Shown here one piece after another: positions 3,991 through 54,288 of a stretch of 64,000 bases of DNA. The notes under the pieces were generated by a model. The model was not told the origin of the DNA, did not search any database, and was given only the letters and a program-made list of their open reading frames with translations. Origin of the DNA: Ceratodon purpureus (Eukaryota; Streptophyta; Bryopsida; Pseudoditrichales; Ditrichaceae); contig CM026422.1 in assembly GCA_014871385.1 (NCBI GenBank), forward strand, positions 12,450,831-12,514,830, given 5' to 3'. The translations under genes were made by a program, and so were the position numbers. Within the stretch, counting starts at the first letter, position 1. Each line of letters starts with the position of its first letter.

Positions 3991-4181
3991 GGGTCAAATT
4001 AAACTCCCATGACCTTTAAACCAATTGAGAGTATGGATTACTTGGGTAATGTGATACTTAGGGTAATTAAGACATTAGAGTTATAAAGAAGTTCTTTAAA
4101 GGGTTTAGGGTGCATTCTATAATTCTTTACTTACTACAGTGACCTTTAGTCGTTAAAAGCTAAACGACAAGACCTATTCCC

Positions 4182-5290
4182 AGGAATGCTATCTTGTGAG
4201 CGGTGAGCGGTGAGCAGTGAGCGGTGAGCACTAAATTTTCAATTTTTGGACTATTTATTTGATATTTTGAAATGATTTTGCATGACATGGCATATATGGG
4301 ACCTATGACCGTGGAAGGTGTTTTACGGTATATTCCAAAAATAATGGCTTCTAAATTGATAAATGTAGAAATTTACACCTATTCATACCCGAATAAATTG
4401 TGATTATTTTTTCATATATCCTATCAATTCCACGCCATGAAGACCAAGAGGAAAAAAAAAAAAAAAAAAAGAAAAAAAAAGAAAAAAAAAATGAAAGAAA
4501 GAAAAAAGATTAAAAATAAGTAATGAAAAGGAATATAGGGAAAACAAATTGAAAAATTAAGGAAAATAAGAAGAAAAAAAAGAAAAAAAAGAAAACAACA
4601 AAAGATGAAAACAAACAAAAAAATGTAATAGAGATAAACAAAATAAAAGATAAAACATAAAAAGGAATTAACAAAACAAGATAAACAAAAAAAATTGAAT
4701 GAATATATATAGGAAAGGAAGAAGAAAGATAAAAAAAAAGTAAAACAAAATTAGGTGAAGACATAACAAAATTAGGTGAAGACAGATATACACAACGGCT
4801 ATTGCAGATGAATGTGGCTTCTAGTTTATTGGGATGATTGTTTTTTCATCCAAGTGGTGGATGACTGATTTTAAGGTGGAGAATTACTTAACTGAGAATT
4901 AATTACTCCTAAAACTGACTTTGGATTTGTATTCGTAGGGGACCCCTGGTTCTTCTTGTTGGTTCGGTGCTTTGTAAGTGAAGGCTTGTAGTCGGAGGAG
5001 GGGTGCTCAAGTACCCCAAGTAATTACTAGGGGTGCTCAAGTACCCCAAGTAATTACTAGGGGTGCCCAAGTACCCCAAGTAATTACTAGGGGTGCCCAA
5101 GTACCCCAAGTAATTACTAGGGGTGCCCAAGTACCCCAAGTAATTACTAGGGGTGCCCAAGTACCCCAAGTAATTACTAGGGGTGCCCAAGTACCCCAAG
5201 TAATTACTAGGGGTATTTGCATAATAAGGAAGGGAAAAATACATGAGAAAGGTTTTACGAAAACCACATTTTTCCATGACTTGCCACTAT
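4182..5290 (+). mobile_element. Partial copy of the MULE left end
   Basis: It starts with AGGAATGCTATCTTGTGAGC and the GTGAGCG heptad cluster, then follows the same sequence as the left 0.85 kb of the complete MULE at 25705. It keeps the AT-rich polypurine stretch and the TTTGCATAATA segment, up to about 5290. Beyond that, homology stops. I find no matching right terminus (inverted GCTCACCG with GATAGC), so this is a truncated copy or an end fragment. Confidence 0.7.
5000..5209 (+). repeat. 30-bp minisatellite, seven units
   Basis: Seven near-perfect tandem units of 30 bp beginning GGGGTGCYCAAGTACCCC and ending TAATTACTA. The first two carry GCTC and the later ones GCCC. The unit has internal dyad symmetry around AAGTACCCC/GGGGT. 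The same site in the MULE at 26.46-26.52 kb has under two units, so the array expanded in this copy. The array stays open in several frames, which creates artefactual ORFs. Confidence 0.9.
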
Positions 5291-10741: not shown

Positions 10742-11590
10742 ATGGTGATAGTAATATCTTCATATCCAGTAAAAGAACACCTCAGTGAAAATCATTTATA
10801 AAAGAAAAAACTAAAATAAAAAAATAATTTTCGCACCGACAACTGGGCACCCGAAAGCGTGGTGGGGTGGGTGTCGGAGGGTGGATTCGAACCCGGCACT
10901 AGCGCCCTGGGGCTGCCACGGCAGTTCAAATCCCGAAGCCTCGGAACACCAAGCCACCAAGGCTTTGACGAGATGGTGAATGTTCCGAGCATACTTATAT
11001 CAAATCCTGCATTCTGGAAATTAAAAAATTAAAAAAAATGATTTGTTTTAGCACCGTCAACTGGGCAACCGAAAGCGTGGTGGGGTGGGTGTTGGAGGGT
11101 GGATTCGAACCCGGCACCAGCACCCTGGGGCTGCCACGTCAGTTCGGTCCGAAGCCTCGGAACACCAAGTCACCAAGGCTTTGACGAGATAGTGAATGTT
11201 TCGAGCATACTTATATCGAATCTGAGATGCTAAAAATTTAAAAAAATAAAAAAATGAAAAATTCCTAATGGCTTTAAGTGGACGCCAAATTAGGCAAGGG
11301 CGTTAAATCATTGCCCAAGCAAATCAGGCTTCAAGGCTTATCTTACGTCTGCATAACTAATAAGCATCTCCATATTCCAAACCCGGGATTGCATAAAAAC
11401 TGAAATTCTAATAATTATTCAAACTTGAAAGAAACATGAAATTGAATTAAATGTATGAGTAATAAATAAATGTATGAGTTATAACTGGGAAAAAGATCAA
11501 ACTGAAATAGAGAACAGTGTGAAGCAGATAGCATTACCAAATTAAAAAATTAAAAGTTAAATTGAAGCAACGGTGGGTCAAAAAGTATAC
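10742..11590 (-). repeat. Right arm of the long inverted repeat
   Basis: This is the reverse complement of 686-1532, ending with GGTGGGTCAAAAAGTATA. The SINE pair is present in inverted order: box B complements lie near 10890 and 11105, within units at about 10837-10992 and 11051-11215. Mismatches to the left arm are few, for example GCGCTAGTGCC against GTGCTGGTGGC. The arms are therefore fairly young or homogenised. Confidence 0.8.
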
Positions 11591-22139: not shown

Positions 22140-22880
22140 CCCAGCCGTCCGATCGGCCGATCCCGCCACCACGCCTCATCTCGGCCGTCCGTTCACGGGG
22201 ACGGCCGCGGGGTCGTTGCGGACGGCCGCACGTCGATCCGACGGCCAAGATGCGGCCGTGCTGGCACATCGCAGGCTGTCGGATGTGGGCGGCCCTCCAG
22301 GGCCGTCGGATCCCACCGCCGTCGCCGCGGCCGACCGCGGGGACGGCCTCGGGGACGGCCGCGGGATCCGACGGCCCAGATCGATCCCGGCGCAGGCCAT
22401 CGGGGACCGCTCGATCGGCGCGGCCGACCGCGGGCCGTCCGATCCCGCGGCCGTCCCCGTGGCCGTCCCCGCGGTCGGCAACGGCGACGGCCGCGGGATC
22501 GGACGGCCCGCGGCAGCCATGGTCGGCCTGGGTGGGCCGTCCGATCGGGCGGCCGTCTCCGCGGTCGGCCGCGGGGACGGCCACTGGATCGGACGGCCCT
22601 CCGCGGCCGACCATGGCCGCCGCGGAGGGCCGTCCGATCCCGCGGCCGTCCGCGTGGGCGACCGCGGGGAGACACGGCCGTCCGCGTGGCCGACCGCGTG
22701 CAGACGGGGCCGACCGCGGAGACGGCCGCGTCGGTCGGACGGCCACGCGGCGCCATCGCCCGACGCGGCCGTCCGATCGGATGGCCGGCGCCTTCGGGCG
22801 GAGTCGCGCCCGATCGGACGGCCGCGGGGGCGTAGATCGGACGGCCGCGGGGACGGCCGTGGGGACGGCCGCGAGGTCGG
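22140..22880. repeat. GGACGGCC array upstream of the kinase-like gene
   Basis: About 740 bp of extremely GC-rich DNA made of interleaved GGACGGCC, GGCCGTCC, CCGCGG and CGATCGG words, without a fixed period. It is open in nearly all frames, so its long ORFs are artefacts of composition. It ends directly at a TATA-like box. Confidence 0.85.
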
Positions 22881-22889
22881 CTTCCCCTC

Positions 22890-22896
22890 TATAAGG
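22890..22896 (+). promoter_or_regulatory. TATA box of the kinase-like gene
   Basis: TATAAGG in CCTCTATAAGGGGAAG, immediately after the GC array and about 270 bp before ATG 23165. The leader carries a 13-G run (23020-23032) followed by ACTTTTCGAATTTTT, a layout shared with gene C. Confidence 0.55.
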
Positions 22897-23164
22897 GGAA
22901 GCCGCCTCTTCATTTTTTACCTTTTTTCTCCCTTTTCGAGTGAGGCTGATTGCTACTGGTGGGGGACTTGATCCTTCTCCGTTGGTCGTTCTCACCGGGA
23001 GGAAAGGGGTCCTTCATTTGGGGGGGGGGGGGACTTTTCGAATTTTTAAACGGTTTTTTTTTAAAACCCTTTGGATTTGTATTGCTCTTATTAATCATTG
23101 TGGGAATTGAGGGTTTCTTTGGAGTTGCAGTTACGATTTCTTGAAGCCTTGAAGGCTTTCCACG

Positions 23165-24640
23165 ATGCCGAAGAATAAGAAGCAGAAGAATGTGGGGGAA
23201 TGGGCGAACAAATTCGATGACGTGCCGAGCTTACGTTGCAAGGATTATATTGTGGCACTCATCGTGGAATTTTACCAGGAGAATACCCTTGTTTCATTGA
23301 ATAGTCGTTACGTTCGGTATGAGGAAGATGGGCCCAGGAAATTCAAGTCAGAGATGGAGACAAAGATTAGGGATCGTTTGATGGATCCGTGCTGGCATTC
23401 GGATACACAGAAGCCCGGTTACGATCATTTCGTGTCACAACGTGCACACGATGCGTTATGGAATGCTAAAGAGGTTATTACTAAGTATGCAAAGGCGCAA
23501 AGGGGGGGAGTCCAGGCCTTCAAGGACACTATTGCAAAGGCAGATTGCTTCACGAGACTAATGGCGTCCCATAGCTCAAGAAAGCATCGACGGGCGTCTA
23601 TTACTTGGTGGAATTCTCCGATTGGGATGGAGACGGCGGATGACTTACGTAAACGGCATTTGACTATCTTGGCAGACTTTGCAGTTTTCTATTACTTGGA
23701 CAAGGAAGTCCAGAGAGGTGGTTATGCTACCATACGTAGGGTTCGTATCGAAGGAAACCCGCAAATCCCACCGTACTGGGAGTTTGCTGAGAAACGGCCG
23801 CTCAATTGGTCTATGAGGCCGGATTTGGCACGTGTGGACCACAACAATGAATCTCTTGCGATAAGGATTCCCCATCCTGGTGTCATCCGCTTCCAGGCCA
23901 TTCATCAGTTGGAACATGTGGGATTCATGTTCTGGTGGAACGGTGGGACCCTTCGAGCCATGCTACAGAGAGACAACGAGGCCCCGGGTGACCTCCCCAT
24001 CAACTACATCTTCAGAGAGAATGCAGACGACAGTCCGATTCTAGGGAAGCGTCTCCAACTTTTCCGAAGTAAGCGTACAGAGCTTGCTTGGGCATTGTGT
24101 AACATCATAGATGCCGTACACAAATACGGTTACCTCCACAATGACTTGTCACCGGACAACATCCTACTTCACTTTCCGGAAGATGAGTCCAAGATCTACA
24201 TCGGGGTTTGTGATTGGGGCTTGATGACGAAGACACTAGAGAACAGAAGGTCGCCTTGGGTTTTTGAGAATGTCCATCAGAAGGAGGAGACTATGAGGAG
24301 GCGATACTGGGTGGATCCTCGCGTGGTATACGTACACAAGGAAAACCAAGATATTCAAATCATTCCAGATTTGACGGTTGCATCGGAGGATTTCGCAGCT
24401 GCGAAGATAGCGGCGAAGATCAACAGGGGCAACATGTGCACGGCATACCACGAAGCCGAGCCAGTAGAAACACGCCATTTCCAGAATATCGGAGAACTCG
24501 CAATGGTTTTCGAAGGTTACCTTGAGAGAGTTTGCCAAAACAACAGAGGAACGATTGGTGGACTCGGACATCTTATTAACCGTTTCAGAGATACACACAA
24601 CTGGCCCACTCCCATCGAGCACTATCGCGAGGGTTACTGA
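23165..24640 (+). CDS. Protein-kinase-like protein with N-terminal CK-x-Y domain
   Basis: Intact 491-codon ORF. The N-terminus is basic (MPKNKKQKN), followed by LRCKDYIVALIVEFYQEN and a helical region. From about residue 180 it has a kinase fold. A glycine-loop-like GGYATIRRV starts at Gly185, with a candidate lysine at K210 (FAEKR). The catalytic loop is YLHNDLSPDNIL (H325, D327, N332), where HND replaces HRD, and D350-W-G replaces DFG. The key Asp, Asn and Asp are present, so catalysis is possible. After residue 400 the C-lobe is short and divergent. CKDY resembles CKEY in gene B and CKKY in gene C, suggesting a shared N-terminal domain. It is probably Ser/Thr-type, and its substrate is unknown. 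Gene B lies convergent downstream. Confidence 0.75.
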   Translation: MPKNKKQKNVGEWANKFDDVPSLRCKDYIVALIVEFYQENTLVSLNSRYVRYEEDGPRKFKSEMETKIRDRLMDPCWHSDTQKPGYDHFVSQRAHDALWNAKEVITKYAKAQRGGVQAFKDTIAKADCFTRLMASHSSRKHRRASITWWNSPIGMETADDLRKRHLTILADFAVFYYLDKEVQRGGYATIRRVRIEGNPQIPPYWEFAEKRPLNWSMRPDLARVDHNNESLAIRIPHPGVIRFQAIHQLEHVGFMFWWNGGTLRAMLQRDNEAPGDLPINYIFRENADDSPILGKRLQLFRSKRTELAWALCNIIDAVHKYGYLHNDLSPDNILLHFPEDESKIYIGVCDWGLMTKTLENRRSPWVFENVHQKEETMRRRYWVDPRVVYVHKENQDIQIIPDLTVASEDFAAAKIAAKINRGNMCTAYHEAEPVETRHFQNIGELAMVFEGYLERVCQNNRGTIGGLGHLINRFRDTHNWPTPIEHYREGY

Positions 24641-25590: not shown

Positions 25591-25704
25591 CTAATAGTCT
25601 CCCCTCCACCCTAATCCATTGTAGTCATATGGATGATAATAGTTCCCATCATTGGGGAGTTCGCTTGGACCTCCCCGATCGTACGTTTCTTGTGGCCCGT
25701 GCCT
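25591..25704 (-). CDS. Gene B, 3-prime end (severed by the MULE)
   Basis: A frame running from the MULE target duplication to TAG 25591-25593. It encodes RHGPQETYDRGG and about 25 more residues rich in Tyr, Gly and Asp. The other part of gene B (38591-39990) reaches the MULE at ...NCARHGP in the same phase, so the two pieces join in frame once the MULE and one target copy are removed. With the MULE present the upstream part terminates with six foreign residues (ATLSCKR region). Confidence 0.8.
   Translation of the reverse strand, partial: RHGPQETYDRGGPSELPNDGNYYHPYDYNGLGWRGDY
25694..25704 (+). repeat. MULE target-site duplication, left copy
   Basis: GGCCCGTGCCT, identical to 38591-38601 on the other side of the element. 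Eleven base pairs is within the 8-12 bp range typical of Mutator-like elements. Confidence 0.9.
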
Positions 25705-25710
25705 CAGGAA

Positions 25711-25776
25711 TGCTATCTTGTGAGCGGTGAGCAGTAAGCAGTGAGCGGTGAGCACTAAATTTTCAAATTTTTGACT
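25711..25776 (+). repeat. MULE left terminal inverted repeat with GTGAGCG heptads
   Basis: GCTATCTTGTGAGCGG, three further GTGAGC-type heptads, then CACTAAATTTTCAAATTTTT. It matches the inverted sequence at 38517-38585 with few differences (GTGAGC against GTAAGC). Tandem heptads at both tips are plausible transposase or regulator binding sites. Confidence 0.85.
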
Positions 25777-26800
25777 ATTTATTTGATATTTTGAGATGAT
25801 TTTGCATGACATGGCATATATGGGACCTATGACCGTGGAAAGTGTTTTAGGGTATATTCTAAAAAGAATGGCCTCTAAGTTGATAAATGTAGAAATTTAC
25901 ACCGGATTCATACCCGAAAATTTTTTGATTATTTTTTCATATATCCTATCAATCCCACGCCATGACGACCAAGAGGGAAAAAAAAAAAAGGAAAAAAAGA
26001 AGAACAAAAAAGAAATAAATGAAAGAAAGAAAATAGATTAAAAAAAATTAATGAAAAGGAATATAGGGGGAAAAAATAAAAAAATGAAGCAAAATAAGAA
26101 GAAAAGAAAGAAATATAAATAAAACAACGAAAGATAAAAAACAACGAATAAATTTAAAAATAAATTAAAAAAATAAAAGATAAAACATAAAAACGAATTA
26201 ACTAAAAAAGAAAAAATAAATAAAAATGAATGAATACATATAGGAGAGAAAGAAGAAAGATAAAGAAAAGAAAAAAACAAAGTTAGGTGAAGAACGGATA
26301 TACACAACGGCTATTGTAGATGAATGTGGCTTATAGTTTTTTGGGATGACTAATTTTTCATCCAAGTGTTGGATGACTAATTTAAAGCTTCAGAATTAAT
26401 TAACTGAGAGTTAATTACTTCTAAAACCGACTTGGGATCCCGGATTTCTGTTCGTAGGGGGCCCCAAGTAATTACTAGGGGTGCCCAAGTACCCCAAGTA
26501 ATTACTAGGGGTATTTGCATAATAGGGAAAGGAAAAATACATGAAAAAGGTTTAAAGAAAACTACATTATATTCTGATGCCTTCAAGTTTTAACCAACGA
26601 ATGTTCAACTTCTTCATAAATTAGTACCATCTTTATAATTCAATCATGTATGAAGACAATTTTAAATATATGGCCGGTAGAGAAACTCATAGAAAAGTAG
26701 AGTAAAGTGAGGTTAAGGCAAAATATAAAATCCAAAGCCAAAGCTATCATATAATATATAAGTAGGGAAAACATAACAATGTAGAGTAAATATGCAATGA

Positions 26801-29800
26801 TCAAGTAGACATCTCGTCATCGCTACAAGTACCAATCCAACCATCATGAGAATCGCTATCACTAGATAATACCACTCTGGCAACTTCTGCAGCTATGTCA
26901 AGATAAATCTCAGCATCACGACAAATGCTATCTCTGTCAGATGAAATAGATGGAGAAGGAGCAGCTAAATAAGCTTGAGCCTGCATCTCTGCATAATGTG
27001 GAAGCTCTAAAGCTCTAACTGGACTCTTTATCTTACTAAGATGGCGCGAGATAATAGAGCCACCAATGTCATTCTTCAACGCTTTCTTCCGACTGCACAT
27101 GACAATTTCACAGTTCAATAAATATTGAACCGGAGTCACTTAAACAAATGAACAAATGTCAAATGAATGTAGAGACTTACTTACAAGAACGCTTGGGGGC
27201 AGTCTTCCTCTCAGGCTCATCATCTGATTCAATGGCACGTTTCTTCTTTGGTGATGCCACAGGAATTGGAGCAGACTCAACCTCTTCTGCGCTTGGAAGA
27301 AGAGGCAACAACACCTGCTTGTACAAGGTGGTGTCATACTCAAAGCCTATGACATGGCGCCGGAGACTCTTCGATGCTCGAATAGAAGCACCTGCAGACA
27401 AATCGAAGCTCAATTGCATGAGATTAAAGAATAAAATGAAATACAGAAAACAACAATCAAAAAACAGAAAGACTAAAAAATACCTGTAGAAGCTGTGAGA
27501 TCCATGACAATGTCATTCTCTACAGTGCAGAGATCAATCAGAGCCTGCAAGAGGTTAGAAGTCTTCTCTCTAGGACCTCTGAATGGCAAACCTGTCTCTG
27601 AATTATAAGTCAGAGAATCTGCAGTTATCAAATTAGTACAGTGACCATCAGTGGAGAGCTTGATGCCTTGGGCACCAAGCTCAGCCCTATCATGAAACTG
27701 GAACTTAGACCTTGGAACACCCTCCTCCGCATTCTCCATCTTGATGAAGCACTTCACCATAAAAGTCTTGTGCTCCCGTGGATAACGGTCTGGAATAGTC
27801 AATGGCAGGCCATTGATTGCAAACCACTTGGCCTCCTCCTGAAAGTTAGCCCACTCTGCCCAGGAAATAAGCTCATTCGAAATGAACCTTGAATCAGGGT
27901 AGAATACAATCAAGGCTCCATCATCCTGCAGAAACTGCATAGCAAACTCAAAATGGGCCTTAATCCACGAAGACTCCATCTTCTTCCCTGCTGAAATCTT
28001 GGGGTGCTTGTTCCAGAATGGAATCTCACCATCCTGCCCTAAACCTGGAACTGGTAAATCCTCTGGAACATCAAAAATGATGAGGTCCACAGCAGCCTCT
28101 GCCTCTTCACCTCCAAACTTCCTAGCCTTGCTACCGAGATTCTCCTTGATCCAGTCCTTCACCTTGATCCAAACCTCAGGCTCATCCCCCTCTGATACAT
28201 CATTAAACAGCTCCAAAATGCCCATAGGGGAGTCATTGATGATCTCAACCCTGGTGTCTACCTCATCCAACTGCGAGCATGGAATGGTGTAGATAGTCTG
28301 AGAAGGCATGGGGGTAGAAAAAAGAGGCACCTGAGGAGCTACAGGAACTATGGCAGCAGCCATGCTGCTACCTGAAGGAGAAATGCCAACATGAGTCAAC
28401 ATCTTCTCTGGCCCTTCCTTCAAAACAAGCTTGGCAAGCTCCCTGTTCCTTGCTGCCAATTCTCTCTTGAGCTTGACTCCTTCCTCCTTCTCCTTCTTCT
28501 TGTCCTCCTTCTCCTTCATCCTTGCCTCAGCCTTTGCCTTTCTCTCTGCTAGTTTCTTCCTTTGCTTCTCAGAAAGAGAAGCATCATCACCAATCTCCGT
28601 GGCAATCTCCTCCAAATTCATGGTATTCTCATCCCCAAGCTGCAGCACCAAGTTGTCACAGCTAGCCTTCAAAGCTCTCTCATCACCAGGACACTTCTCA
28701 TTCTCCTTCAATTCAAGGTACCATGGACATTGGTGGAGATGTGGAGCTCGAAAATGCCTCCTCTGGTAATCTGTAAAAATGCACTCAGAGCTAGAAACAT
28801 CCACCCATTTCTTGAAACGCTGTGGAATATCATTCCTATCAATGGCACCCTTAACTACCAACTCCCTCCAGAAGTACCTCAATATAACCCTCTTCATAGC
28901 ATTCTCAGCTCCAGCTTGGTTAAGAAATGGTTCTTTCTTGGTGAAAGTGCCAGCCTTGGGGAAGAAACCAGTGAAGGCCTTTCCCCAAAGAGTAAGAGAA
29001 TGAGCCTCAATCCATGAGCCAATATCATCTACAGGATTAGGTAAATCCTCTGTCCTCAAAACTATAATATCCTCCTCTACAATCTTGGCATAACGAAGGC
29101 CTGCCTCTTCTTCTAACTGCAGGATAAGAATCAAACCAAAAATATTTTAATGCATTACATTAGAAAGAATGTGGTTTTAATTTCAATTGCAACATTAAAA
29201 GACATAGATCAATTCAAATTATGAGAGAAATAATGATTGTGCTTACCCCGGCCCAGAAGGCTGCTTGATCAATCCAAACTCGAAGAACTAAGTCTGAAGC
29301 TGGTGTTGGAGGAAAGTTGTACTCCACCCGACTCTCCTTGCTCATGTTCCACCACTTTAGCCAACGCTCTTTGTACTTGGGAGCAACCTTGGCGCTTGCA
29401 AAAAGTTGCAACTTCTCCGGGGTCATTTCTGCGTCGCTCTGATAAACATCAAAATGGCGAATGATCTGCACAAAAGAATATAATCATATGAGAATAAAAG
29501 ACTTCTAAAACATAGAATATCTAAAACATATAGTTGCTTTCAAGTGAACATAACAAAGTAAATAAAAACAGACTAAATCATGTTTATCAAAGAAGTATAC
29601 AATACAGAACCCAAACAGCGTACTTGCAGCAGCCGGTAAACAATGAGTGAGAAATCTTGCTTGCATTAGGCAGGTATCACTCAACACATTTATAGCCCAA
29701 ACAAATACCAAGCCCAAGGCTCCAAATAAACAACACAAAATCCGAGCCTCCACTGGAGGCAAGGACCAAATTTAAAAATTAAACCGGAGTCACTTGCTTG

Positions 29801-31562
29801 CAGTAAGCGCACAGCATCCCCCTAAACATGATATCAGTCACCGAGCCATGCTCAAAGACTCACCACAATCACACAGCCAATGCAAGAAGAAGGCAGCAGG
29901 CTCAGCAACCATGAGCAAAGGACTCGTGACATGCACCGAAACCTTACAATAAATCTCAAAAAAAAAAAACTCAGCAGGTCCCGGCCTCATAGTTTCACGC
30001 AGTTTGCACAAAAAAGTAAAGTTCCGGAGTGAGCTCCAGGCACCCCTCGGATCCGAGAGATGGTCCGGGGGTGCCGCCTGGAGACACTTTTTTTGAAAAA
30101 CATCACAAAATCCGAGCCTCCACTGGAGGCAAGGACCAATTTTAAAAATTAAACCGGAGTCACTTGCTTGCAGTAAGCGCACAGCATCCCCCTAAACATG
30201 ATATCAGTCACCGAGCCATGCTCAAAGACTCACCACAATCACACAGCCAATGCAAGAAGAAGGCAGCGGGCTCAGGAACCATTTACGAGAATATTACAGA
30301 TTCATGGATAATTTATGGAAATAAACTTACCTCTTTTAGGAAACCTTCGCCATTAGCTGGGTTGGCAATGGCCAAGTATAGGTCCAATTTAGTGGAAAGG
30401 GATGTTTTCTTCACCGCTACGGCCTTCTTGGCAACCGCAAGGAGCTCAGAGGGACTTCCCACCTTGTCCTCTCCGCGACCTGTGACTAATGTGTCTCTAT
30501 AGATCCGAATAGCTTCTTCTTGCGCCGCTGATATTTCTCTCTAAAAAACATACAGTAGCTGTTAGTGTATTCGCTTTGGCAATAATCTGAGTAATTACTG
30601 ATAAATATTTGACAAGGATAATCCTTTAAACATTCTCACCTCGTATAAGAAGTCAATAAATGAATCATGTAATAGATGATACCACTTTCTGTTCTTGATA
30701 CGCCCCCACTCTATTATGCTTGCTTGCAAATCCTCATCTTTGACTAGACCCTTCAGCTGGTCAAAGTCCAGAAGACCTAGCTGTTGGACCCGCTTCACCT
30801 CATGGGTCCAATGTTGAACAACATGGTCCACTTCATTTTTTCTGTAAACAGTAAACAGTCAATCCATAAAATTAAAATATGAAGCATTTGTAAGTTAAAT
30901 AAAAGGATCATGTTCTAAAAATTCATATACTTTAGATTGTAATGAGTTTGAACTATATGAATTACTTACTTGTTCCAATCTGTCATGGCATGCAACAACA
31001 TATTGCAATTTGCAGGCGTCACGTTGATGATGATTGAACGGGCTGAAACATGGAAAGAAGCATCATGCTTGTGGAGAGAATTGATCAATTCTGACCAAGC
31101 AATGTGGCGATGATTCCCGTCCCATACATAGAAGTAGCGATTGGAGTATTTCTTCAAGTCAGGATTTGACAGCAAACGTGCTTCAAACTCAAGGTCCTCC
31201 TTCTGCCATAAATCGGACCACGTTGACCTGTCAGCCTCGGTGACACTTGACTCTTCCATCCTAAAGCTCTTCAGTGATAGATAGAAGCTCGATGAACCTC
31301 GCTTGTATCCGTGGCTGAATTCAGCCTTTAGCTTCTGTATGTCAGTCTTCAAAGGCTCCCTCACATCCTTCATAGGAATCATCCTGCACAATGGGACATC
31401 AATCTCCATGCTTGGTATGTCCACTGCATCTTGAAGAGCAAAATGTGAGCTACCCTGCACAGCCTTGCGGAGCTGATCTTCCATCTCAGCCAGACCCACG
31501 TCGGTAGAGTCCATGGCTGTAGACGGGCTGTGCACCTCTTCCATGCCCAGGTCACAGCTCAT
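26801..31562 (-). CDS. ParB/sulfiredoxin-like plus N4/N6 DNA methyltransferase-like protein
   Basis: Seven exons: complement of join(26801-27092, 27181-27391, 27484-29116, 29247-29465, 30331-30540, 30640-30841, 30970-31562). All have GT-AG borders and matching phases, giving 1,120 codons. Further upstream exons probably start at ATG 33684. Near residue 148, YVWDGNHRHIAWSEL resembles the ParB/Srx DGxHR signature. A Lys/Glu-rich coiled segment lies in the middle. From about residue 745 there is a methylase-like domain in permuted order. First comes DLIIFDVPEDLPVP (D757-V-P-E where DPPY is expected), then FAMQFLQDDGALIVFYPDSR. Last is motif I, DLTASTGASIRASKSLRR, with IGFEYD; D947 starts it and it spans an intron. 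That order fits beta-class enzymes of PF01555 type. DVPE makes adenine or cytosine methylation doubtful, though SAM binding may persist. Confidence 0.75.
29733..29911. repeat. Intronic direct duplication, first copy (second at 30103-30281)
   Basis: About 179 bp from CACAAAATCCGAGCCTCCAC to GGCAGCAGGCTCAGCAACC is repeated 370 bp away with only a few differences. Both copies lie in the intron between 29465 and 30331 of the methyltransferase-like gene. They add length without touching exons. Confidence 0.85.
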
Positions 31563-33684
31563 CTGCATGCCAAATATATAACCAGTTTAGCCCAAAGCGA
31601 TCAACTTCCATTGCAGCTTCTACTACATTTACCAGGACTTATAATGTAAGCTAAAAACATTATCCAAGTCAGATGTAACAGTTCAAAGTTAGTTCTATTG
31701 GCTCTGCTAGATTAATTATCTCTAGAATAACATACTACGTGCATTCAACAAGTCTCTTGCGCTGAGAGGATTAAATTATTCACGGCATCCCAATGGCTGC
31801 CTGCACCCATCTTGCTCTGGTCATGGATGCCACTGTTCAAGATTCGGCATTGCCTGGGGCGCCTCACATCCCTCTAGTATCGATGCTACCTCCGGGGCAC
31901 TTGTTTCCGTTTACGAGCTTTGCAGTCCAGATAGCAGCAGCTGCTGCTCAGTGCTTCACCACGGGCTATGTTTTTTAATTATTTGCGGCACCGACTGGAC
32001 AAAATCTACCGGGATGGGAGCAGGTTGAGGTCCTCTACAAAGTCTAGCAGTGTGCATTTCGAAGGGCTCTTACACTTCGCGGACATACAGGAGATTAACA
32101 TGGACGATGTGATGGGCTGGTTACCTTGACTGAATTGGAATTCGAAACCGACAGGTCTCTTTCCACCTCCTGGAAAACAGTTCGCTCCTCTCTCACGTAT
32201 TCTTCGAACTGGTTTACCTGGATCTCATACAATGTGTCAATTATTATATAATTCAAACTTAGAGTACCACCTTACATTCAGAAAGCACAGAATCCAATTC
32301 AAAGTCCCATTACGATTTCCATGTATACATACCTCAAAAGCTTGTGACTCATTACCATCAGCTATGTTTGCGCAGCCTTCACCTTCTACGATGCCCTCCA
32401 ATACCTGCACAGACCATTTCAAAGCAGTCAGCTCACTCGCAAATCCAGCCTCACAGCACCATGCGAGAGATCGTACTAGAAACAATAAACACATTTATTC
32501 AACTGAGATAGCAACATCGCATCCACTTTGTCCCTTGGCATTACTAAAAATTCACCCTCGTCTCTCTGAAATCCACAGAGTTGCAGGAACTCCACTCCAC
32601 CATTAAAACTTCCAACTCTCTCCTGGAACAAGCCGAGAACGACACTGCCGAAATTAGAACATTGGAAACAAGAAGAATTCGAAGGGACTCACCGGAACGA
32701 AATTGCTGGTTCCCCTTGCCGTAATCGTTGACTCCAGCGGAGCAGTAGATTCTTCTACTGTCCTGACAGTGTCAAGACTGCCTCCCTCTTCAAATCCTCC
32801 GACCCGAATTTCCTTTATCCATAACTAGGGTTTTAGTTTCCAAGAAATGGCTACAGACTTGAGGAACCAATCTTTCTCCGAACTCCACGAATCGTAAGGA
32901 AGAACTTGACAAAAACAAGATTGAACCACTTACAGATTCAGGCGACGTGCATGTTGGGTCGCTGTGCGTGTTGGGATGGTCGCTGTGCGTGTTGGGATGG
33001 TCGTTGAGCGCAGTGCCTGATGGGTCACAGGCTTCGCCCACTTCGACAACTCCAGGTCCTAAGGGCAAGCTGCTCTGCAAACCGACCCAACATTTTTTCA
33101 AGAAGTCAACTCTATGTACTTGATACTTTGACGTTATCATCCAAAGTCCGTTCCGTGAGTTGTATAACTGGTTACATCCTAGATATTGGACAATGATTAT
33201 CCACTTCCTGTGAAAGCAATGCGTACTTCCTCGGGGTCTCCTCTTCGTGGGTTTCTACTCTACCTCTGTAAAGGAATTCCTTTGCGGCAAAATAAAAAAA
33301 AATATATAATAATGCAATACGTACTGCATTTAATGCTGTTGACCCCCGGAGTAAAATAAAACAATTCTACAATAATCCATATAACATAATGATGCAGTAT
33401 TTTAAATTACTTACAATTAGACAATTACACATATGAGCAAACCGTATGATGTGGTATACCTGGCATATGGTGGCTAATGCTTTGATTTTGAGATGCTTGG
33501 GATCATCTGAGCCATAATCCACTTCTGCAATACGGTCAAGAGCGTCTTTCTCCTTCCGTCTCTTCTGGGCCGCCACCTGCTTCGGATTAGTAAAACCTGA
33601 ACCACGCTTTCTCCCTCTACCTCTAGTCGTACACGATCTAGGAGCCCTCGGCACTCTGGAGCTTGGCTCTTCCTCTTCCCTCAT
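31563..33684 (-). other. Probable upstream exons of the methyltransferase-like gene
   Basis: Several short open segments have good splice borders on the minus strand. One runs from ATG 33684 (MREEEEPSSRVPRAPRS, a basic RGRGRKRGS stretch) to donor CAG|GTATAC at 33460. Another is 32934-33074, in phase, with repeated DHPNTHS. Further pieces end at 32693 (GTSNFVP), and others lie near 32.34-32.40 kb (EGEGCANIADGNESQAFE) and 32.12-32.22 kb (NQFEEYVREER). They are low-complexity and charged. The exact exon chain is not settled. Confidence 0.45.
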
Positions 33685-34425
33685 AGGTCTCAGTAACGCT
33701 ATCCCCTGCACATAATTCTAACTAAGAAGAATGCTTTGGATTTGAGAAGAGTTCACTCCAGTTATATAGTCGTCTCTTAGACCCTAATCCTTTCATAACT
33801 GTATGACATGCATGATCAATATGTGATTGCTAAAGTTTGTGTCAGTATCCTTGTTATATATAATAGTAGTATATATTTATAAAGTTAGGTGCACATTACT
33901 GTAGAAAGGCAGATTATTATCTGTAAAGGGAATGACAACATATTATGTTGAAATGCGACAAAACCACTGTCTGCCCAGGTATAATATCTTTCCTTAATAT
34001 ATTGTAAGATATGGAACTCTACTTCTAAACAAGAGAACCATTTAAATTAACGCTACTTTGATCACGCTGACATTGACGGCTAATTGTTATAAATGTATTG
34101 GTGCACATCTGTGACGTTTCAAATTCGCTGCTAAATGGAATAACTGTATTAGCTGATCATGACGTGGTTGGCGGACTCAGCCGCCTAAGCACTTTATTAT
34201 GTCAGACACATTCAAACTTAAATTAAGCTATACAGGTCATGGTGAATTCGCCAGTAGACTCTATTTCATTTTAGAGTATGTTAGTTGTCCCACCACACTA
34301 ACCACTAACAACTATATAATCTCTACAACCTGGAACACACCAAGCACATCTTCTTACACTCTGCTTGCACAAGCTTTCCTCCAATGCATGATTGTACTTC
34401 TCCTATCTTCTATAGTACACTTAGA
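33685..34425. promoter_or_regulatory. Divergent promoter region of the MULE
   Basis: AT-rich spacer between the divergent start codons of the methyltransferase-like gene and the transposase. It contains several TATA-like tracts (for example TATATATAATAG near 33854 reading plus) but no clear single TATA box. Shared control of both genes is likely from the layout. Confidence 0.4.
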
Positions 34426-37400
34426 ATGGCCTCTCTACGGTCTCATGATGGAGGTATTCCTTTTGTGATGTCAGTAGGTCCAGACAATAAGGTAGTTGTG
34501 GAGGAGCGATTACTTAGCCTCAGGTTTGGGTTTAGAGCTGGGACTATTTACGTGGAAGAAGAGATCTTCGATGATAATGGTGAGATTCTTGAGTGTGTAT
34601 TTCAAGTGAAGGATTGTACACCCGATGGTTACGTCTGGACTCTTAGCACTGGAACTTTCAAGGTTTATGGGTTATCACATGCACAGATGTCTGAGTCTAC
34701 TGTTCTTTTGACCCCTCCCCCCTCCACGTCAACAGTTCAAGTTCCTGGTCTAGCATCTGTCAAAATTGAACCCAGTGACAACTCAGTACATTTGTTGAGT
34801 GACTCGGATGATGACACTCACAGTGAGATCAAGCTAGGAGACACTAGGTCAAATCCATTTCAGAGTCGTGGATCCCAAGACTCAGGTCGTCCATCTCGAC
34901 AGGGTAGTCGTTCTAGTATATCTGCGTCATTGTCTACAGGGCGTCCACCTATTCACCCTGCTTCAAAAAAAAACAGGAGCATTATGTTTTCCATCAGAAT
35001 GACAGCATCAAGAAGGGGCTCCCGATCAGAATTATCGAAGATTGATTTCGATACTATTGAACATGAACAAGTGAAGTACTTACCGCCAGTTTACGATGGA
35101 GACAAGATTTTCGAACTGCCCCCTGTACCAGAAGGAGTTCCAAATCCATTTGGAGGTGGAATGGACGGGATGAGCAAGCAGTATGATGGCCACACCTGGT
35201 GCAAGACCATGACCACAAACATCAAGAACGAGTATGGCCTCACATATCGTAAGTCATCCTGTACTGGACACTTACAATGTCCCAACCTGAGTTGCGATTA
35301 CATCTGCAGGAATAATGGGATGGTAAATAGCACAGAATGGTCAGGCGTAGCTTTAGTACCATTCTCTGTGGGAGGCTCCCCCACAGAGAAATCTACTTTA
35401 GCATGCAAAGTATGTCAGACACCTCCTAATTGTCTAGCATTGTGCGACGCAAGGATCTATCATGTGTCGTCTTCAGACAATGATATGACCCCTGCGGCGA
35501 TTCATTTAGGACGTCATAGACATCCTGTATCTCAGGGCAGATGTCAAGATTCTATGGATATCATGTTTGACTGCATAGCTAAGGAGGTTCAGAGGACACC
35601 TAACGCCAAAAACTCTGCTATAGTTCTAGCGGCCAGCAAGCAGTACCTTGCCGATGCTCTGATCCGTCCTACTGCAGGAGGCAGTCATCTTCGAGGAGCA
35701 TCTATGGATGCTGTAATGGACCAATTTGAAACTCTTTCTTCACCGAATATACGCAATTTTGTTTCTGGATCGAAGAGGTTTTTCCGTCAAGGAAGAGGAG
35801 TCACAGATAGCATCTTGGAGCTGAAGGATTACTCCAACTTTGATTTCATCCACCGTAATCAATTCCCTGGACAGAATGAAGGCAAGGTGTTTCTGTTCAA
35901 GATGTCCACTGATCGTCCAGGAAGCGGTGTGGATCTGGTAAAGCGCATGCAGCCTGGAGGTGATCTTCAAGACTGCTGGATCATGTTCGACCATGTTAGG
36001 CGCGTAGCTGACTGGACCACTATGGCATGCCACGTTTATGACAGTAAGTATTGTAAAGTTATGACAATTGCTCTTTGTGACATGCAATCCGAAGATGCTG
36101 CTGCTCAAGAGTTATTTTGGCTCCAGCTCAATGAAGTTATGCGCAAGAACGGCCTTGAAAATACAAATTTCAAAGGATTCATGGCTGACAATGCTGGAGC
36201 CAACTGGCACGCTGTTCGGAAGGTGTATGGGAACGGAGACCCCAATGATCCCATGGAAGAACGGGAGCGCACTTGTCTTTTCCACTGGACAAAGTGCCTT
36301 CAGAGAGCTACTTCTCGGAATATCTTGCCAAGCTTTCAAGACCAACACAAAGCTTTGTGCAAAGTATGGAAGGACGCAAAGACCCAAGAGGAAGCAGAAG
36401 CGCAGTACAACGTCATCCGCGGGTGGTGGCTTTCGTCAGGCGCTACAACTGAAGAAGGAAGGCGTCATCTAAATGATTGGATGGTTTTCTGGCACTATCG
36501 GTATAGACAATGGGGAGGCTCGATGCAGCTTGTAAGTTCGTTCATCTCTAAACCTACCATAAAGTATTAGTATACCTCGCTATTTAACTGTAATCCTGAA
36601 AATGACATGATTTATTTTATTGTATTTCCCAGGATCTTACCCTTGACGAGAGAGCCGACATGCCTTCCTGCAACCTTGCGGAAACTGTGCATAACAGATG
36701 GCTTCAACAATCAGGAAATACAATGACCTGTTTGTACGAGGCAACAGTGGATGATATGATCCGAGCATTCATGCAGATCACTAGCTACCGGTCTTGGCTG
36801 AAGGGAGGAAAGGGCGGTAAAGGTCCGGACAGAGCAGAACTTCGTTTACGCCACGCTCAACGGTCTGGTGACCCCAAGTTGATTGCTGAAGCAGTTAATT
36901 CCTACCCGGGAGCCGAGGATTTAATGACGAAGAAAGGAGGCTTGGAAGGTGCAGAGATCTTTGGATCTACAAAACGGAAGTTAGATTTGCCGCCTGGTTC
37001 GAGTCATGACTCACATCGCTATGATACAGTGAATTATTCCATTCCTCGTGATGGCACGCGATCCACCAGGGCACGCATTGAGGAGGCTCTTTCTCAACCT
37101 GACTCTGGTGTTGAACACATTACTTCAGTGCAGGAGACAGATTGCGATCCGTCTAAGTGGCACATTGCCAGACTGTCCGGCAAATCTAACCGAAAATGCC
37201 AAGCAATGCAGGCTCATACAAATGAGAAGTGCGATACCCGAGTGCGCCGAGGTACACATGGTACGCCTGCTCCTACCTATGTAGGGCTGAAGAAGGAATT
37301 CAGAACCGATCGCCATATTTCTACTGACTTCTGGTTTTGCGCCGATGACATTAATAGATGTGTGAAGGGCACAAAGAAGTCGTTTGTGATCGATTGGCCG

Positions 37401-38010
37401 TCTATCCCGCAGACCTGGCCTGTGAAAATGGGCACGAACCTAACCATCAAAGAGATTTTGGCTCTTGAAGAGGCCGGCTTCCAACTCCAACAACGTGGAC
37501 GGTGGAGTACTATCACCTCGTCGTCAGTTCCAGGTTTCTGCTAATATGCCGCTTCCAAGGAGTCATTTCCCGGTTCCTGTCGATCCGGATACACACCCGA
37601 CGACTCGAAACGGATATGCCATCAGGAGAAGTTCTGACGCTCCTACCTCCGACCACCGAAACAAGTGGAGCAGCGCTGGTCTCATGAACAACTATTGGAT
37701 TACAAATGTAACATCGATTCCATATCCAGGATTTGGCTGCGTCATCTCCTTGAAGAGCCCAAGTGAAACGATATATTGTATCACCATCACGGACTTCCCT
37801 GGATGTACTTGCCCCGACTTCATGAAAATGACTTCGGAAACCCTTGGCAAAAGAGGACAGTGGAAGTACTGCAAACATGTTTATTATATCTTCCGCTATC
37901 TATGTGAGATGGATTACAAGGTTGATACTTTTATGCACGCCCCTAGCTTCAGCTTCAACGAAGTTATGCGTGTTCTGGAGATGGCCAAAGTTGCTGAACC
38001 GCTTCAGTAG
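34426..38010 (+). CDS. MULE transposase with SWIM zinc finger
   Basis: Exon 1 is 34426-36531, with donor CAGCTT|GTAAGT. Exon 2 starts at 36633 after TTTCCCAG, in phase. The N-terminal third is Ser-rich with Gln/Arg stretches. It is followed by a Cys-rich knuckle (CTGHLQCPNLSCDYIC; CKVCQTPPNC), a core with WIMFDHVRR, a GFMADNAGAN segment and CLFHWTKCLQR, then NLAETVHNRWLQ. The C-terminus has a SWIM finger, CTCPDF...YCKHVYYI near 37.80-37.88 kb. Between about 37450 and 37560 the frame shifts by one base; only a 34-nt intron-like interval would repair it, so a frameshift or assembly error is likely. The family acts in the nucleus, binding the terminal repeats and cutting as a DDE enzyme. Confidence 0.8.
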
Positions 38011-38217
38011 TTTCTTATGGTTAGACTGTGAAATTAAGTGACCAACACAGTTCAAGAATACATTATATGAATAGCGGAATTGATTTGTTTTGTCTTTGTG
38101 ATGGATTTGGAATCCGCAGAACATAAATAAAGGTCACTATTTCTTTATATATTGTCCACCTCTCGAATGTGTTTCTGGTAAAATGAAAGAAAAAAAAAAA
38201 AAATCTTCCAATGTTAG

Positions 38218-38255
38218 GGAATATTCTTCTCTCGGATCCGAGAGAAGAATATTCC
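38218..38255. repeat. Perfect 38-bp palindrome
   Basis: Two 19-bp halves, GGAATATTCTTCTCTCGGA and its exact complement, centred on GGATCC. A third half-copy follows at about 38264-38281. It is 0.2 kb downstream of the transposase stop, inside the MULE. It could form a cruciform or a strong RNA hairpin. Confidence 0.95.
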
Positions 38256-38516
38256 TTCATACCTTGGAAATATTCTTCTCTCATATCAGCGTCCACAGAA
38301 ATGCAATAAATTTTTTTTTAAAAAAGATTGGATATACATTCTGTATGTGACTTAAACAGTAAGATTTTCCCTCCAACCATTCACATTTTATTAATTCCAC
38401 GGTTATAGGGTCTACTTTATTTGCATTCATATATTCCAACAAAGTGTCCTAAATTGCTCATCATTGTTTGATTGTTCTCCAAAAAATTCAAAAAAAAAAA
38501 AAAAAAAATTCAAATT

Positions 38517-38585
38517 TTTACCTAAAAATTTGAAAATTTAGTGCTCACCGCTCACTGCTCACCGCTCACCGCTTACAAGATAGCG
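38517..38585 (-). repeat. MULE right terminal inverted repeat with heptads
   Basis: Reverse complement of the left tip: AAAATTTGAAAATTTAGTGC, then GCTCACCG-type heptads, then ACAAGATAGC. The target copy GGCCCGTGCCT follows at 38591-38601 after a few terminal bases. Confidence 0.85.
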
Positions 38586-38590
38586 TCGCT

Positions 38591-39990
38591 GGCCCGTGCC
38601 TTGCACAATTTGTAGAGGCTCTCAGAAGTCTCTCTCTCTCCTCCATCAATCTTCGATTATCCCGTCTTAGGTGGAACGCATGATTCTCCATCTGTAGTAC
38701 GTAATTTTGCCTTGTTCGCTCCAACTCTAGTTCTTCCTCAAAATAGCTATCTCTTACAACTCGACCGGGAGGGTATCCAAAAGGAGGAGGTGGTACTCTG
38801 TCATCGCGATGAAGTACGTTGCGGTTGTCCCCGCTATTGTGATCAGTACCGTCGGTGTGATAACCTAGAGGTGGAGGAAATATTCCAGGCGAAGTCCGCG
38901 AAGATGATCTGTAATCATCTTCTGCAAATAGGGCAGATGGGGTACCATGACCACCATATCCGCGGTATGGAGGGGGAGTTGCGTAATCATCACGTCCCAG
39001 TCTCTGCGTATCTTCTTCGCGATCTGGGGAATAACCGTGAGGTACCTCTCTCGGAGGTGTTCGATGGCGCGGACTAGCACTCCTTGGAGGACTCGGTATT
39101 TCCGACCAGCCGTCGTCATAGTTACTAAAGTATCTTGATCCCGTTGCATAATCTGGCCACGGTCGTCCCCCATAGGGTCCATACGTGCTATCCGCAAAGT
39201 CAAAGGGTAAATCAGCTCCTTCCGGTTTCCCGTGGCCATAGCCTTGTTCGTGGGGTCCCATGTCCTGACGATCTAGCGAACGGTGTCCCCCGTGGGCAGA
39301 GCTTTGTCCATACTCCTCATGGTTGGTACGTGATGACTCTCTGGCACGATGCCCTCTGCGATTCCTTGGATTTTCGTTTGAGCGACGCCCTCGATAGTTG
39401 TCTTCATCATCATAGCTTAAACGACGTCTCTCCTGTTCCTCATCATTATATTCGATGGCTAGAGTTTGTATTCCTGCATCTTGTGCCGGTGGACTCCGAC
39501 GGTTTGAAATATGTAATGGGGGACAATCGCTATGTCCACTCCAGTCTGTTACAAGATCCATGCTGTCTCTGTTCATTCTATCTGTCCTCAGGCCCGAGAC
39601 TGTGGTCCAGTCAACCCTCTTATGTAAGACTATCTCCGCCCACACCATTGCCATATTCGAATACAACATGATATGAGGTCGGGAGTTCTGGATTCGTGCT
39701 GCTCGAAAAACCTCGTTGTATCGAATTTTGAAATGATTACTTTCACAATTGTCGATCCTGATCTCTCCCCGTGTTGCTTGTTTCTCCGCAGCCTCGGTAC
39801 GTAGATGTACTGGGATCAACTTCATGAGGTGCTTCATCTTGACATATTCCTTGCAAGTTACCATCCGCCATGGTGATGGTTCCCCCTCCCATCCAATCTC
39901 TGCTACACAATCAGGGTCATTCGTAGCGTATGGATCCAAGGGGTGTTTCCTTTTAGGAGTGGAGGGTCCTCCCCGGTCGTTACGAGGCAT
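38591..39990 (-). CDS. Gene B, 5-prime part: CK-x-Y domain protein with charged, RS-rich tail
   Basis: Starts at ATG 39990 (MPRNDRGGPSTPKRKHPLDP), ahead of which codons look like UTR. The globular domain spans about residues 30-150: VTCKEYVKMKHLMKLIPVHL, then MLYSNMAMVWAEIVLHKRVDW. It aligns with gene C (KECKKYVKMYHIDKLWP and AELILKRKIRWCTY). The rest is low-complexity Arg/Ser/Gly/Tyr/Pro-rich, then a short helical segment ending RERLLRASTNCARHGP at the MULE. The C-terminal 35 or so residues are now at 25591-25704. The gene would be intact without the MULE. I do not recognise the family, and function is unknown. Confidence 0.7.
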
Positions 39991-40374: not shown

Positions 40375-41037
40375 AACGACGGCCCCCCTACGGCCGTTGG
40401 ATCTCGGGGAATGGAGAATCCAACGTCCGTAACTGGTCCGTCGCGGGAGCGGTCGCGGCCGTCCACGATCGCGGCCGCGACCGGTCGTGCGGCCGCGACC
40501 GCTCCCCAAAGGGTGCGTCGGTGGACCGCCGCCCCGCGGTCGGGACGGCCGACCACGTCGACGGGCGTCCCCGGGGTCGGCCGCGGCCCACCGCGGGAAC
40601 GGCCGTGCTCCACCCCGCGGTCGGAGGCTGCAGCGGCGTGGTCGGCCACGGCCGACCACGCCGACGGCCCTTCCGACCGCGGGGTGGGCCGTGGCCGTCC
40701 CCGGGGACGGCCGTGGTGAACCCCGCGGGGACGGCCTTGTCCGACCCCACGGGGACGGCCTTGTCCGACCCCACGGGGACGGCCGTGCTCCACCCCGCGG
40801 TCGGCCACGGCTGTCCACGCGGTCGGCCAGGGCCGTCCACGCGGACGGACCTTCCGACCGCGGGGTCGGCCGCGGCCGACTCCGGGGTCGGGGGGCTGCG
40901 ACCGCGGTGTCGGCCACGACCGTCCCCGCGTGGACGGCCGTCGTCCGCAGCCGTAGGATCTTCTCGTCGTAGAAGATCCGACGGCCGTGGGCGACGGCCG
41001 TCCACGCGGGGTCGGCCGTGGCCGTCCCCGGGGACGG

Positions 41038-41040
<3 letters not shown>
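40375..41040. repeat. GGACGGCC array upstream of gene B
   Basis: About 665 bp of GGACGGCC/GGCCGTCC/GCGGTCGG words, like the other three arrays. Internal short tandem units such as GACGGCCTTGTCCGACCCCA occur twice near 40730. It lies upstream of gene B on the minus strand and separates it from a poly-G tract. Confidence 0.85.

Positions 41041-41068
<28 letters not shown>
41040..41068 (+). repeat. 29-nt poly-G run
   Basis: An unbroken run of 29 G at the distal edge of the array, followed by a C/T-rich stretch (CTCCTCCCC type) on the same strand. Such a run can form G-quadruplexes, and its exact length is prone to sequencing error. Confidence 0.9.
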
Positions 41069-54200: not shown

Positions 54201-54288
54201 TTGATAGATCGCCCGGAAAAACTTCAAAAAATCGGGGTACCACGTCCTCAAGAGAACTAGAGCCTCCGAAGAAGCTCCAATTCAACAC
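51208..54288 (-). CDS. hAT-family transposase (DUF659 plus hAT dimerisation domain)
   Basis: Intact single-exon ORF of 1,026 codons. A degenerate BED-like finger (CMLCKNTF...SHL) lies at residues 40-80. The DUF659 core has candidate catalytic Asp residues in LDGWTS (D281) and CYDNAPVM (D342), then GCAAHAMDLLLEDW and GQTRFASHY. The C-terminal hAT dimerisation block is at residues 625-690 (FGWWDIYG, LAQPLSSSSCERNWSSYS, KRNRLLPERANDLVF). An acidic, low-complexity tail of about 330 residues follows, longer than usual. ATG 54288 is chosen because it is the first after the TATA box; ATG 54192 (MASKSYSPWY) is an alternative. All expected blocks are present, so it could be active. Short hAT terminal repeats were not found. 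Confidence 0.88.
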   Translation of the reverse strand: MLNWSFFGGSSSLEDVVPRFFEVFPGDLSSAPMASKSYSPWYTEVHMSDAEKKKTEMVQCMLCKNTFAMRIERMLSHLGYDKVLGVRTSGVGRCTNLSPAILSLFKNCGGKFPNDSRIFMSEQSTSPVTRGNISPRVNTPMDVDSCAGSRVSTPKNEPVLIGEGVPFISTFPGEGSGPFPPLKAKRQSTLQEGFEETQRRECDKAWATFFYENSISFNVAQSASFKDAVLKTSNMKRSYTPPSYHHLRTNLLAQARTDLETSLNDRIFSSVRKYGGTLALDGWTSVSSRPLINAMLVSPASELFLGAVDTSGKEKDAVFVATVIEKFIQQVGEQNIIQVCYDNAPVMLNAGKLVQALYPSIFVQGCAAHAMDLLLEDWSKMKWVKELLDRAKNLVKFIKIRQMPLSVFRKHEAKLSLLMPGQTRFASHYIMISRLLKVRGALEQSVVDPDWRNYETKKTLSARDKAKISRDVKRVVLDDVFWEQCANFKWMTSPVVYALREFDAKESALGKAYVVLRNLEKHVLSLRQEPFKLDSDNADYCKDSFYERKAMIKSPLQCAAALLNPYLIDDEDLRNDSDAMASAKEVLLSMAPPTLKEVVIEEFFAFREAYPPFRDVRESSKSQLPPFGWWDIYGSAGKFISPIAKRILAQPLSSSSCERNWSSYSFVHDRKRNRLLPERANDLVFVYTNSKIISQSKLSALGRFYGELEGKEDPKAVETEDVDYSSESDVDLPFDDLSIDPPIEAPVDDLEVSPKGKSRCSHAPMERAFEYDDVEEEGTNEEDTIPLSSFLNGDGLLNSDKILRGGSSHTTVDLVIPKKEGDPTIDTSKVVSPNFNRLKDDMVPPTTKEDVPVPVSGASRTLFGTAKTRVQVGGFESSTRLVELSKKMKADAKAAEVAEKCRKRLVRTQQADPGLLSTDDGLPIGNLFGPKLALGKPDIFPEKPPARATSKRKAVDKTQKVLAFNPGRPKTPLDDPNGPKKFLNPFESKKKSKARVKKVRESDGDDEYDSSGPSGAEVKDDSDYVA

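Follow-up and report, generated by a model that had tools for sequence, protein, structure and literature searches.

The locus considered here raises the question of what a large spliced gene, whose product ends in a domain resembling prokaryotic DNA methyltransferases, is doing beside a transposase in a moss genome. It lies in a 64-kb stretch of Ceratodon purpureus DNA (contig CM026422.1; 45.9% GC), the whole of which is called the window below, and within an element of 12,885 bp (25705-38589) that appears to carry two divergent genes, one for a transposase on the plus strand and one for a large spliced accessory protein on the minus strand. The explanation that we favour, and to which we would give about an even chance, is that this is a Mutator-like moss transposon (the term being a working label), whose accessory protein may bind S-adenosylmethionine (SAM) or DNA without methylating it, enter the nucleus and act on the element's own ends. 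Judged by sequence comparison, the end of that protein is a domain derived from a phage-type amino-methyltransferase.

The accessory gene and its methyltransferase-derived domain

The accessory gene consists of seven minus-strand exons (31562-26801) separated by six GT/AG introns, which join in phase with no stop codon or frame break to give a protein of 1119 amino acids. The seven exons with consistent phases described in the original prediction are therefore borne out; of the span of 26801 to 33684 assigned to them the end at 26801 stands, but the start lies at 31562. Exon 1 (30970..31562) encodes a conserved domain with a WDGNHR motif and has 21 homologues; it is followed by exons 2 (30640..30841), 3 (30331..30540) and 4 (29247..29465). 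Exon 5 (27484..29116) encodes a conserved middle part with a lysine-rich stretch, then DVPE, which is motif IV, and DLTAST, the first part of motif I, exon 6 (27181..27391) the remainder of the motif I region, the GFEYD box and the basic stretch PKKKR, and exon 7 (26801..27092) includes the stop codon, at 26801. The protein is accordingly laid out as a WDGNHR domain (motif at residue 147), a middle region with conserved cysteines and the lysine-rich stretch, a methyltransferase region at about residues 750-980 (DVPE at 757, DLTASTG at 947, GFEYD at 968) and PKKKR at residue 1000, so that all the motifs originally quoted could be located in it.

Two of the six junctions have support from outside the window. 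The Ceratodon protein P0123 spans the first (NK|KNEVDH), with the start of exon 2 joined to exon 1, and P0001 and P0002 have an additional stretch at DLTAST|GA that represents read-through at the position of the last-but-one intron. These last two are the long-protein relatives, recovered in a search limited to candidates of 0.55-1.75 times the query length, with identities of 58% (P0001) and 37% (P0002) over 56% of the protein, namely its second half. All 21 relatives of exon 1 match with an E-value of 4.4e-11 or better, and the two sets of relatives together exceed what chance would give. Along the whole of the open reading frame (ORF) containing this exon (31565-30969) the Ceratodon purpureus hypothetical protein M758_9G115400 shows 93% identity.

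In its last third the accessory protein appears to descend from a prokaryotic or phage-type beta-class amino-methyltransferase. PF01555 matches residues 790-977 of the window protein with 35.2 bits against a cut-off of 26.7 (E-value 1.6e-8), and it also passes the cut-off for P0001 once the read-through stretch is removed (31.4 bits, 2.3e-7); with that stretch kept, P0001 scores 16.2 bits and P0002 gives no match. The MTase_II model of PADLOC matches residues 750-977 (2.6e-9), a PHROG methyltransferase family matches the motif I part alone (1.4e-8), and tblastn recovers the phage methylase phiRM10 gp48 at 2e-6, with 23% identity over 94% of the query. Two solved methylases give weak matches, DpnA at an E-value of 0.004 and CcrM (6pbd) at 0.011, the latter aligning with residues 51-276 of a 287-residue query and placing DVPEDL opposite DPPYNL. 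Both the CcrM alignment and the multiple alignment show the permuted order of the beta class, with motif IV first, the target region next and motifs X and I after it, and together with the PF01555 score this upholds the permuted methyltransferase domain that had been proposed.

Two phage subfamilies of such methylases were profiled, the stand-alone DIPY type (Lrm1 type) and the DPPY type fused to ParB. Usable frames were obtained for 78 of 80 DIPY loci, the frame being picked by a required D.PY, and for 71 of 80 ParB-methylase loci, picked by a required DPPY. A set of 23 sequences, each accompanied by 100 shuffled versions (2300 in all), was scored with hmmsearch, which reported 19 sequences and 1481 shuffles for the DIPY-type profile, 22 and 1869 for the ParB-type methylase profile, and 10 and 1541 for a profile of the ParB part. 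The three moss-type proteins (the window accessory protein, P0001 and P0002) scored 30.8, 25.8 and 24.9 bits with the profile of the 78 DIPY-type methylases, the best of the 2300 shuffles reaching only 4.7 bits, whereas with the ParB-fused type the moss-type methyltransferase half scored 5.9-9.1 bits and shuffles up to 7.3. The better-scoring subfamily is thus that of the stand-alone phage D[IV]PY beta-class methylases of the PF01555 family, as found in Lactobacillus phage Lrm1 and Ruminococcus phage phiRM10 (gp48). They share with the moss protein the permuted motif order and D[IV]P at motif IV; they differ from it in that three such phage methylases have 252-269 amino acids, DIPY or DVPY and a G.G motif I, whereas the moss protein has at least 1119 amino acids, is spliced, and reads DxPE and ASTG at these sites.

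The motif IV aromatic residue of such enzymes is generally needed for catalysis. In all three moss-type proteins motif IV departs from the [DNS]xP[YFW] pattern, reading DVPE, DVPE and DIPE, while 78 of the 80 loci fetched from phage relatives have DIPY (two were not read) and phiRM10 gp48 reads DVPY; the DPPY of 71 out of 71 ParB-methylases is no independent count, because these were fetched and picked by that motif. An acidic residue has hence taken the place of the motif IV tyrosine, and it is kept between sequences that are 37-40% identical. Motif I, DLTASTG, retains its aspartate and second glycine in all three proteins, with serine for the first glycine, and so departs from the G.G pattern; the HPTQKP motif has become G[PA]RE[KR], and both acidic residues of the GFEYD box, a glutamate and an aspartate, persist throughout. 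Because of DxPE at motif IV and the loss of one motif I glycine, ordinary catalysis is doubtful, as the original prediction had suspected from DVPE. Base methylation would on these residues be unlikely and SAM binding possible, and we infer that the domain may still bind SAM and/or DNA.

The retained residues, namely aspartate and the second glycine in motif I and the acidic pair of GFEYD, also bear on an alternative in which the accessory protein, despite its non-standard motif IV, works as an N6-adenine or N4-cytosine methyltransferase and would mark the DNA of the element. Domain homology that is strong by PF01555, the DIPY profile and PADLOC fits this, and that the domain is still conserved at 37% identity speaks for its having some function. 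With the motif IV aromatic changed to glutamate in three of three proteins, the first motif I glycine changed to serine and HPTQKP changed as well, we nevertheless consider an active enzyme unlikely.

The element, its transposase and the provenance of the gene

A bounded element of 12,885 bp is indicated by its inverted ends together with a direct repeat outside both. The terminal inverted repeat arms (25705..25792 on the plus strand, 38504..38591 on the minus strand) are 88 bp long and 84% complementary, the right one extending 2 bp into the flanking repeat; arrays of a GTGAGCG-type heptamer are present in these terminal repeats, with five heptamer cores in the left arm. The 12-bp flanking repeat, TGGCCCGTGCCT, stands at 25693..25704 and 38590..38601, directly outside the two ends, and these are its only exact occurrences in the window. 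The left end is placed at 25705 also because a second copy starts at 4181 with identical letters, CAGGAATGCTATCTTG. This second copy (4181..5270, plus strand), the sole other one in the 64-kb window, comprises the left end and subterminal region only, and neither the transposase nor the accessory gene could be traced in it. When the flanks of the element are joined through one copy of the direct repeat, a minus-strand frame stays open for 537 amino acids and continues ~33 codons past the repeat; a random frame would do so with a probability of ~0.2, so that this frame is at chance level and by itself no evidence that the element interrupts a gene. Pfam gave no match for the long ORF of the right flank. 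The partial second copy is enclosed by an inverted pair of ~845 bp (686-1529 and 10742-11589; 98% identity, 9 kb apart), which is probably another transposon or a nested insertion.

The transposase is encoded on the plus strand by exon 1 (34384..36531), with a cysteine-rich N-terminal part and a D..D..CxxH core, and exon 2 (36633..37541), with NLAETVH as the site of a candidate catalytic glutamate; splicing at the sites between them yields a long protein. Exon 1 has 134 relatives at an E-value of 0.001 or better, and alignment A4 combines the window protein with 32 of the best-listed 120 of these. In this alignment MFDH, MAD and CLFH are conserved by eye, the candidate glutamate and a SWIM-like CxC...CxH region (37543..38007) being seen in the window protein only. 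The D, D and CxxH positions and the possible SWIM-like region resemble what we take to be the arrangement of the Mutator group. From exon 2 to the SWIM-like region (37495-38007) the frame shifts, and no intron of usual length is seen there. Because the latter region is in another frame, the transposase of this copy may be broken or may have an unrecognised junction. No Pfam model for Mutator-like elements (MULEs) matches the window transposase, the SWIM-like region has no Pfam match, PF00872 matches 2 of 33 scanned transposase members (best E-value 0.034), and no relatives of the transposase were found among the viral contigs searched. The flanking repeat has 12 bp, compared with target site duplications of 8-11 bp for MULEs (PMC6446971, cited here in part, like the other papers below), and 1 bp could be a chance extension. 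The MULE setting originally proposed stands as far as a gene beside a transposase, between inverted ends and a 12-bp repeat, is concerned; the Pfam models and the expected repeat length do not confirm it.

MULEs have a tendency to pick up fragments of host genes (PMC6446971, in part), and the accessory gene might accordingly be a captured host gene or set of host exons, carried as a passenger with no role in transposition. In keeping with this, Ceratodon P0123 is listed as a hypothetical protein of the ordinary kind and differs at its N-terminus, where residues 1-103 found no counterpart in the window, and the second copy of the element in the window is without the accessory gene. A passenger is harder to reconcile with a 1119-residue frame that is intact across seven exons, and with 3 of the 21 exon-1 clusters (formed at 90% identity) holding 14, 18 and 23 sequences, as expected of a repeated element gene, though several assemblies could contribute to such counts; we judge it improbable to a similar degree as the active enzyme. 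A weak by-eye comparison of the transposase relatives (120 of 134) with the exon-1 relatives revealed no shared contig larger than 6 kb; one contig size, 2518, is common to both (P0113, P0142), but the sources differ.

The N-terminal region and the ParB question

Upstream of exon 1 an open frame with a donor site (33460..33687, minus strand) could encode a basic stretch of ~75 amino acids; its one Pfam match is sub-threshold, and it is a candidate member of the gene. Further candidate upstream exons on the same strand were picked by eye at ~33066-32940, 32797-32690, 32404-32331 and 32219-32131. The third intron of the accessory gene, at 865 bp far longer than the other five, contains a 185-bp direct duplication (29728-29912 and 30098-30282) that is 97.8% identical. 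For alignment A1 no relatives were found in the viral contigs or prokaryote genomes searched, and its profile retrieved nothing from solved structures. The corresponding search with alignment A2, which comprises exon 1 of the window and 20 of its 21 relatives (P0143 was dropped for its 20% coverage), gave a single match that we take as chance; PF11090 (T7 Gp13) in 3 of 21 exon-1 members (best E-value 0.023) and tblastn matches of exon 1 to T7-like phages (E-values of 5-9) were likewise judged to be chance.

The ParB/Srx box is a G.[HR]R motif that follows a strand, its arginine being typical. The window reads FYVWDGNHRHIAW at this place, and WDGNH is nearly invariant across the 21 rows of A2. 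Of the 20 rows covering the arginine of DGNHR, 17 have it and 3 have another residue, and P0123, which reads DENHR, has lost the glycine. Pfam finds no ParB family in any of the 21 exon-1 members, and with a profile built from the N-termini of 71 phage ParB-methylases the moss protein scores -1.4 bits, against shuffles as high as 6.1. Comparison by hhalign with 11 viral ParB domains was not significant (P 0.48); its alignment sets DGNHR opposite the phage GGHQR box, and once the insertion was trimmed 118 of 200 column shuffles scored as high or higher. These profile tests have limited power, the effective number of sequences (Neff) in A2 being ~2 and the ParB profile having been built from close phage relatives. 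A structure model of exon 1 from 21 sequences had a low mean predicted local distance difference test score (pLDDT) of 48.9 and no Foldseek match at an E-value of 0.001 or better, and that of P0001, from 3 sequences, a mean of 37.8; by eye, the order of helices and strands predicted for exon 1 might be ParB-like, at very low confidence.

Because these tests are negative yet limited in power, a ParB fold is unproven, and the ParB/Srx-like part originally claimed finds no support beyond the DGNHR motif, itself variable. The capture of an existing prokaryotic ParB-methylase, also proposed then, is not borne out by Pfam, the ParB-methylase profile, hhalign or the column shuffles, and it is unlikely because stand-alone DIPY methylases are the better match to the methyltransferase half. 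That exon 1 is a true ParB/Srx-fold nickase or NTPase, and the protein a ParB-methylase with both nicking and marking of DNA as its task, as in the phage and bacterial fusions, of which one from Bacillus cereus has nicking activity (PMC5512222, in part), is for all the near-invariance of WDGNH very improbable given these negative comparisons, the replaced arginine and glycine, and a methyltransferase half closer to methylases that lack ParB.

A possible role at the element's ends

If the accessory protein is the non-methylating binding protein that we favour, it would need a place to act. The left subterminal region contains two 22-bp near-palindromes, 30 bp apart (26461..26512; one exact, one with 1 mismatch), each self-complementary at 20 of 22 positions and sitting inside a 30-bp repeat. 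The second copy has seven exact units (5013-5214) against the two in the 12,885-bp element, and no further match occurs in the 64-kb window with up to 4 mismatches allowed. A perfect palindrome of 38 bp lies near the right end (38218..38255). PKKKR is a stretch that we take to be a possible nuclear localisation signal, and on its account the accessory protein would be nuclear. There it would act at the element's ends, the palindromic subterminal array and the heptamer repeats being the likeliest sites, and would either aid transposition or block host silencing in the way of VANC in VANDAL elements. This mechanism is suggested mainly by the variation of the repeat arrays between copies, by analogy with the targets of VANC, which are noncoding tandem repeats with described expansion and contraction of arrays (PMC10398659, in part). 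A more specific version, in which a phage-type amino-methyltransferase has been turned into a non-catalytic, SAM-sensing binder of the element's own palindromic arrays with an anti-silencing function, a methyltransferase-derived counterpart of VANC in one lineage of land plants, is one that we offer tentatively, as doubtful though somewhat more probable than an active enzyme or a passenger.

Several points weigh against the reading of a methyltransferase-derived protein acting on the ends of a Mutator-like element. With its read-through stretch removed P0002 scores 25.3 bits with PF01555 (1.7e-5), just under the cut-off of 26.7 and in the motif I part only. The PF01555 stretches start after motif IV, so that DVPE is equated with this motif on the strength of the alignments with CcrM, the PADLOC model and the phage methylases; the conservation of DxPE, read from sequence, rests on three proteins, and the four pieces tried gave no match in NCBIfam. 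Membership in the Mutator group is without profile confirmation. The 10-bp core of the palindrome recurs at 3755, outside the element, and at 30590, inside it. The subterminal repeats and palindromes could serve the transposase alone, and since the second copy has the array without either gene, recognition by the transposase fits as well as recognition by the accessory protein. Finally, the parallel with VANC, for which no methyltransferase domain is known, would be one of position and repeat behaviour rather than homology.

Several known systems share single features with the moss element. VANDAL MULEs of Arabidopsis are likewise DNA transposons with an accessory gene (VANC) and copy-variable noncoding tandem repeats (PMC10398659, in part), in a different host lineage; of the marks of VANC-type anti-silencing, which are sequence-specific binding to noncoding repeats and loss of 5-methylcytosine, the moss element shows the repeat array. 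In MuDR, mudrB is similarly a second gene adjoining a Mutator transposase, and its function is given as unknown (PMC6446971, in part). N4CMT of bdelloid rotifers is, like the moss domain, a PF01555 domain of bacterial or phage origin in a eukaryotic genome; it differs in being a host N4-methylcytosine enzyme that is active in E. coli and has a chromodomain, with no transposon link described in the part of the paper cited, which also states that N4CMT has no eukaryotic homologues (PMC8885841). Retrotransposons of Symbiodinium and Klebsormidium also encode a protein derived from a DNA methyltransferase (DNMT); theirs are C5-cytosine methyltransferases in retrotransposons, whereas the moss element is a nuclear DNA transposon with an amino-methyltransferase-derived domain (PMC5890265, in part).

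Elsewhere in the window a 1026-residue ORF (51208-54288) has hAT transposase domains (DUF659, 1.3e-34; Dimer_Tnp_hAT, 6.4e-10), and an ORF at 56717-57613 has a Transposase_21 domain (8.2e-65), presumably of the CACTA/En-Spm type. An ORF of 491 amino acids at 23165-24640 is protein-kinase-like, with a weak Pkinase match under the cut-off (3.3e-5), and GC-rich islands at 22200-22900 and 40500-41050 contain CCGCGG/GGCCGTC repeats and many inverted repeats.

Among the open-licence papers listed, no title or displayed abstract describes this gene in a moss element, and a plant DNA transposon with an accessory protein derived from a phage-type amino-methyltransferase, its active site altered, is in our view both genuine and out of the ordinary. 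How transposons resist or exploit host silencing is a question to which methyltransferase-carrying elements are relevant, and the cases in the cited parts of the literature are C5-cytosine enzymes in retrotransposons, with DNA transposons of marine viruses that encode a DNMT mentioned besides (PMC5890265). If the explanation favoured here is true, beta-class amino-methyltransferase folds would be reusable as accessory factors in a plant DNA transposon, for which the palindromic array offers a specific candidate DNA target.

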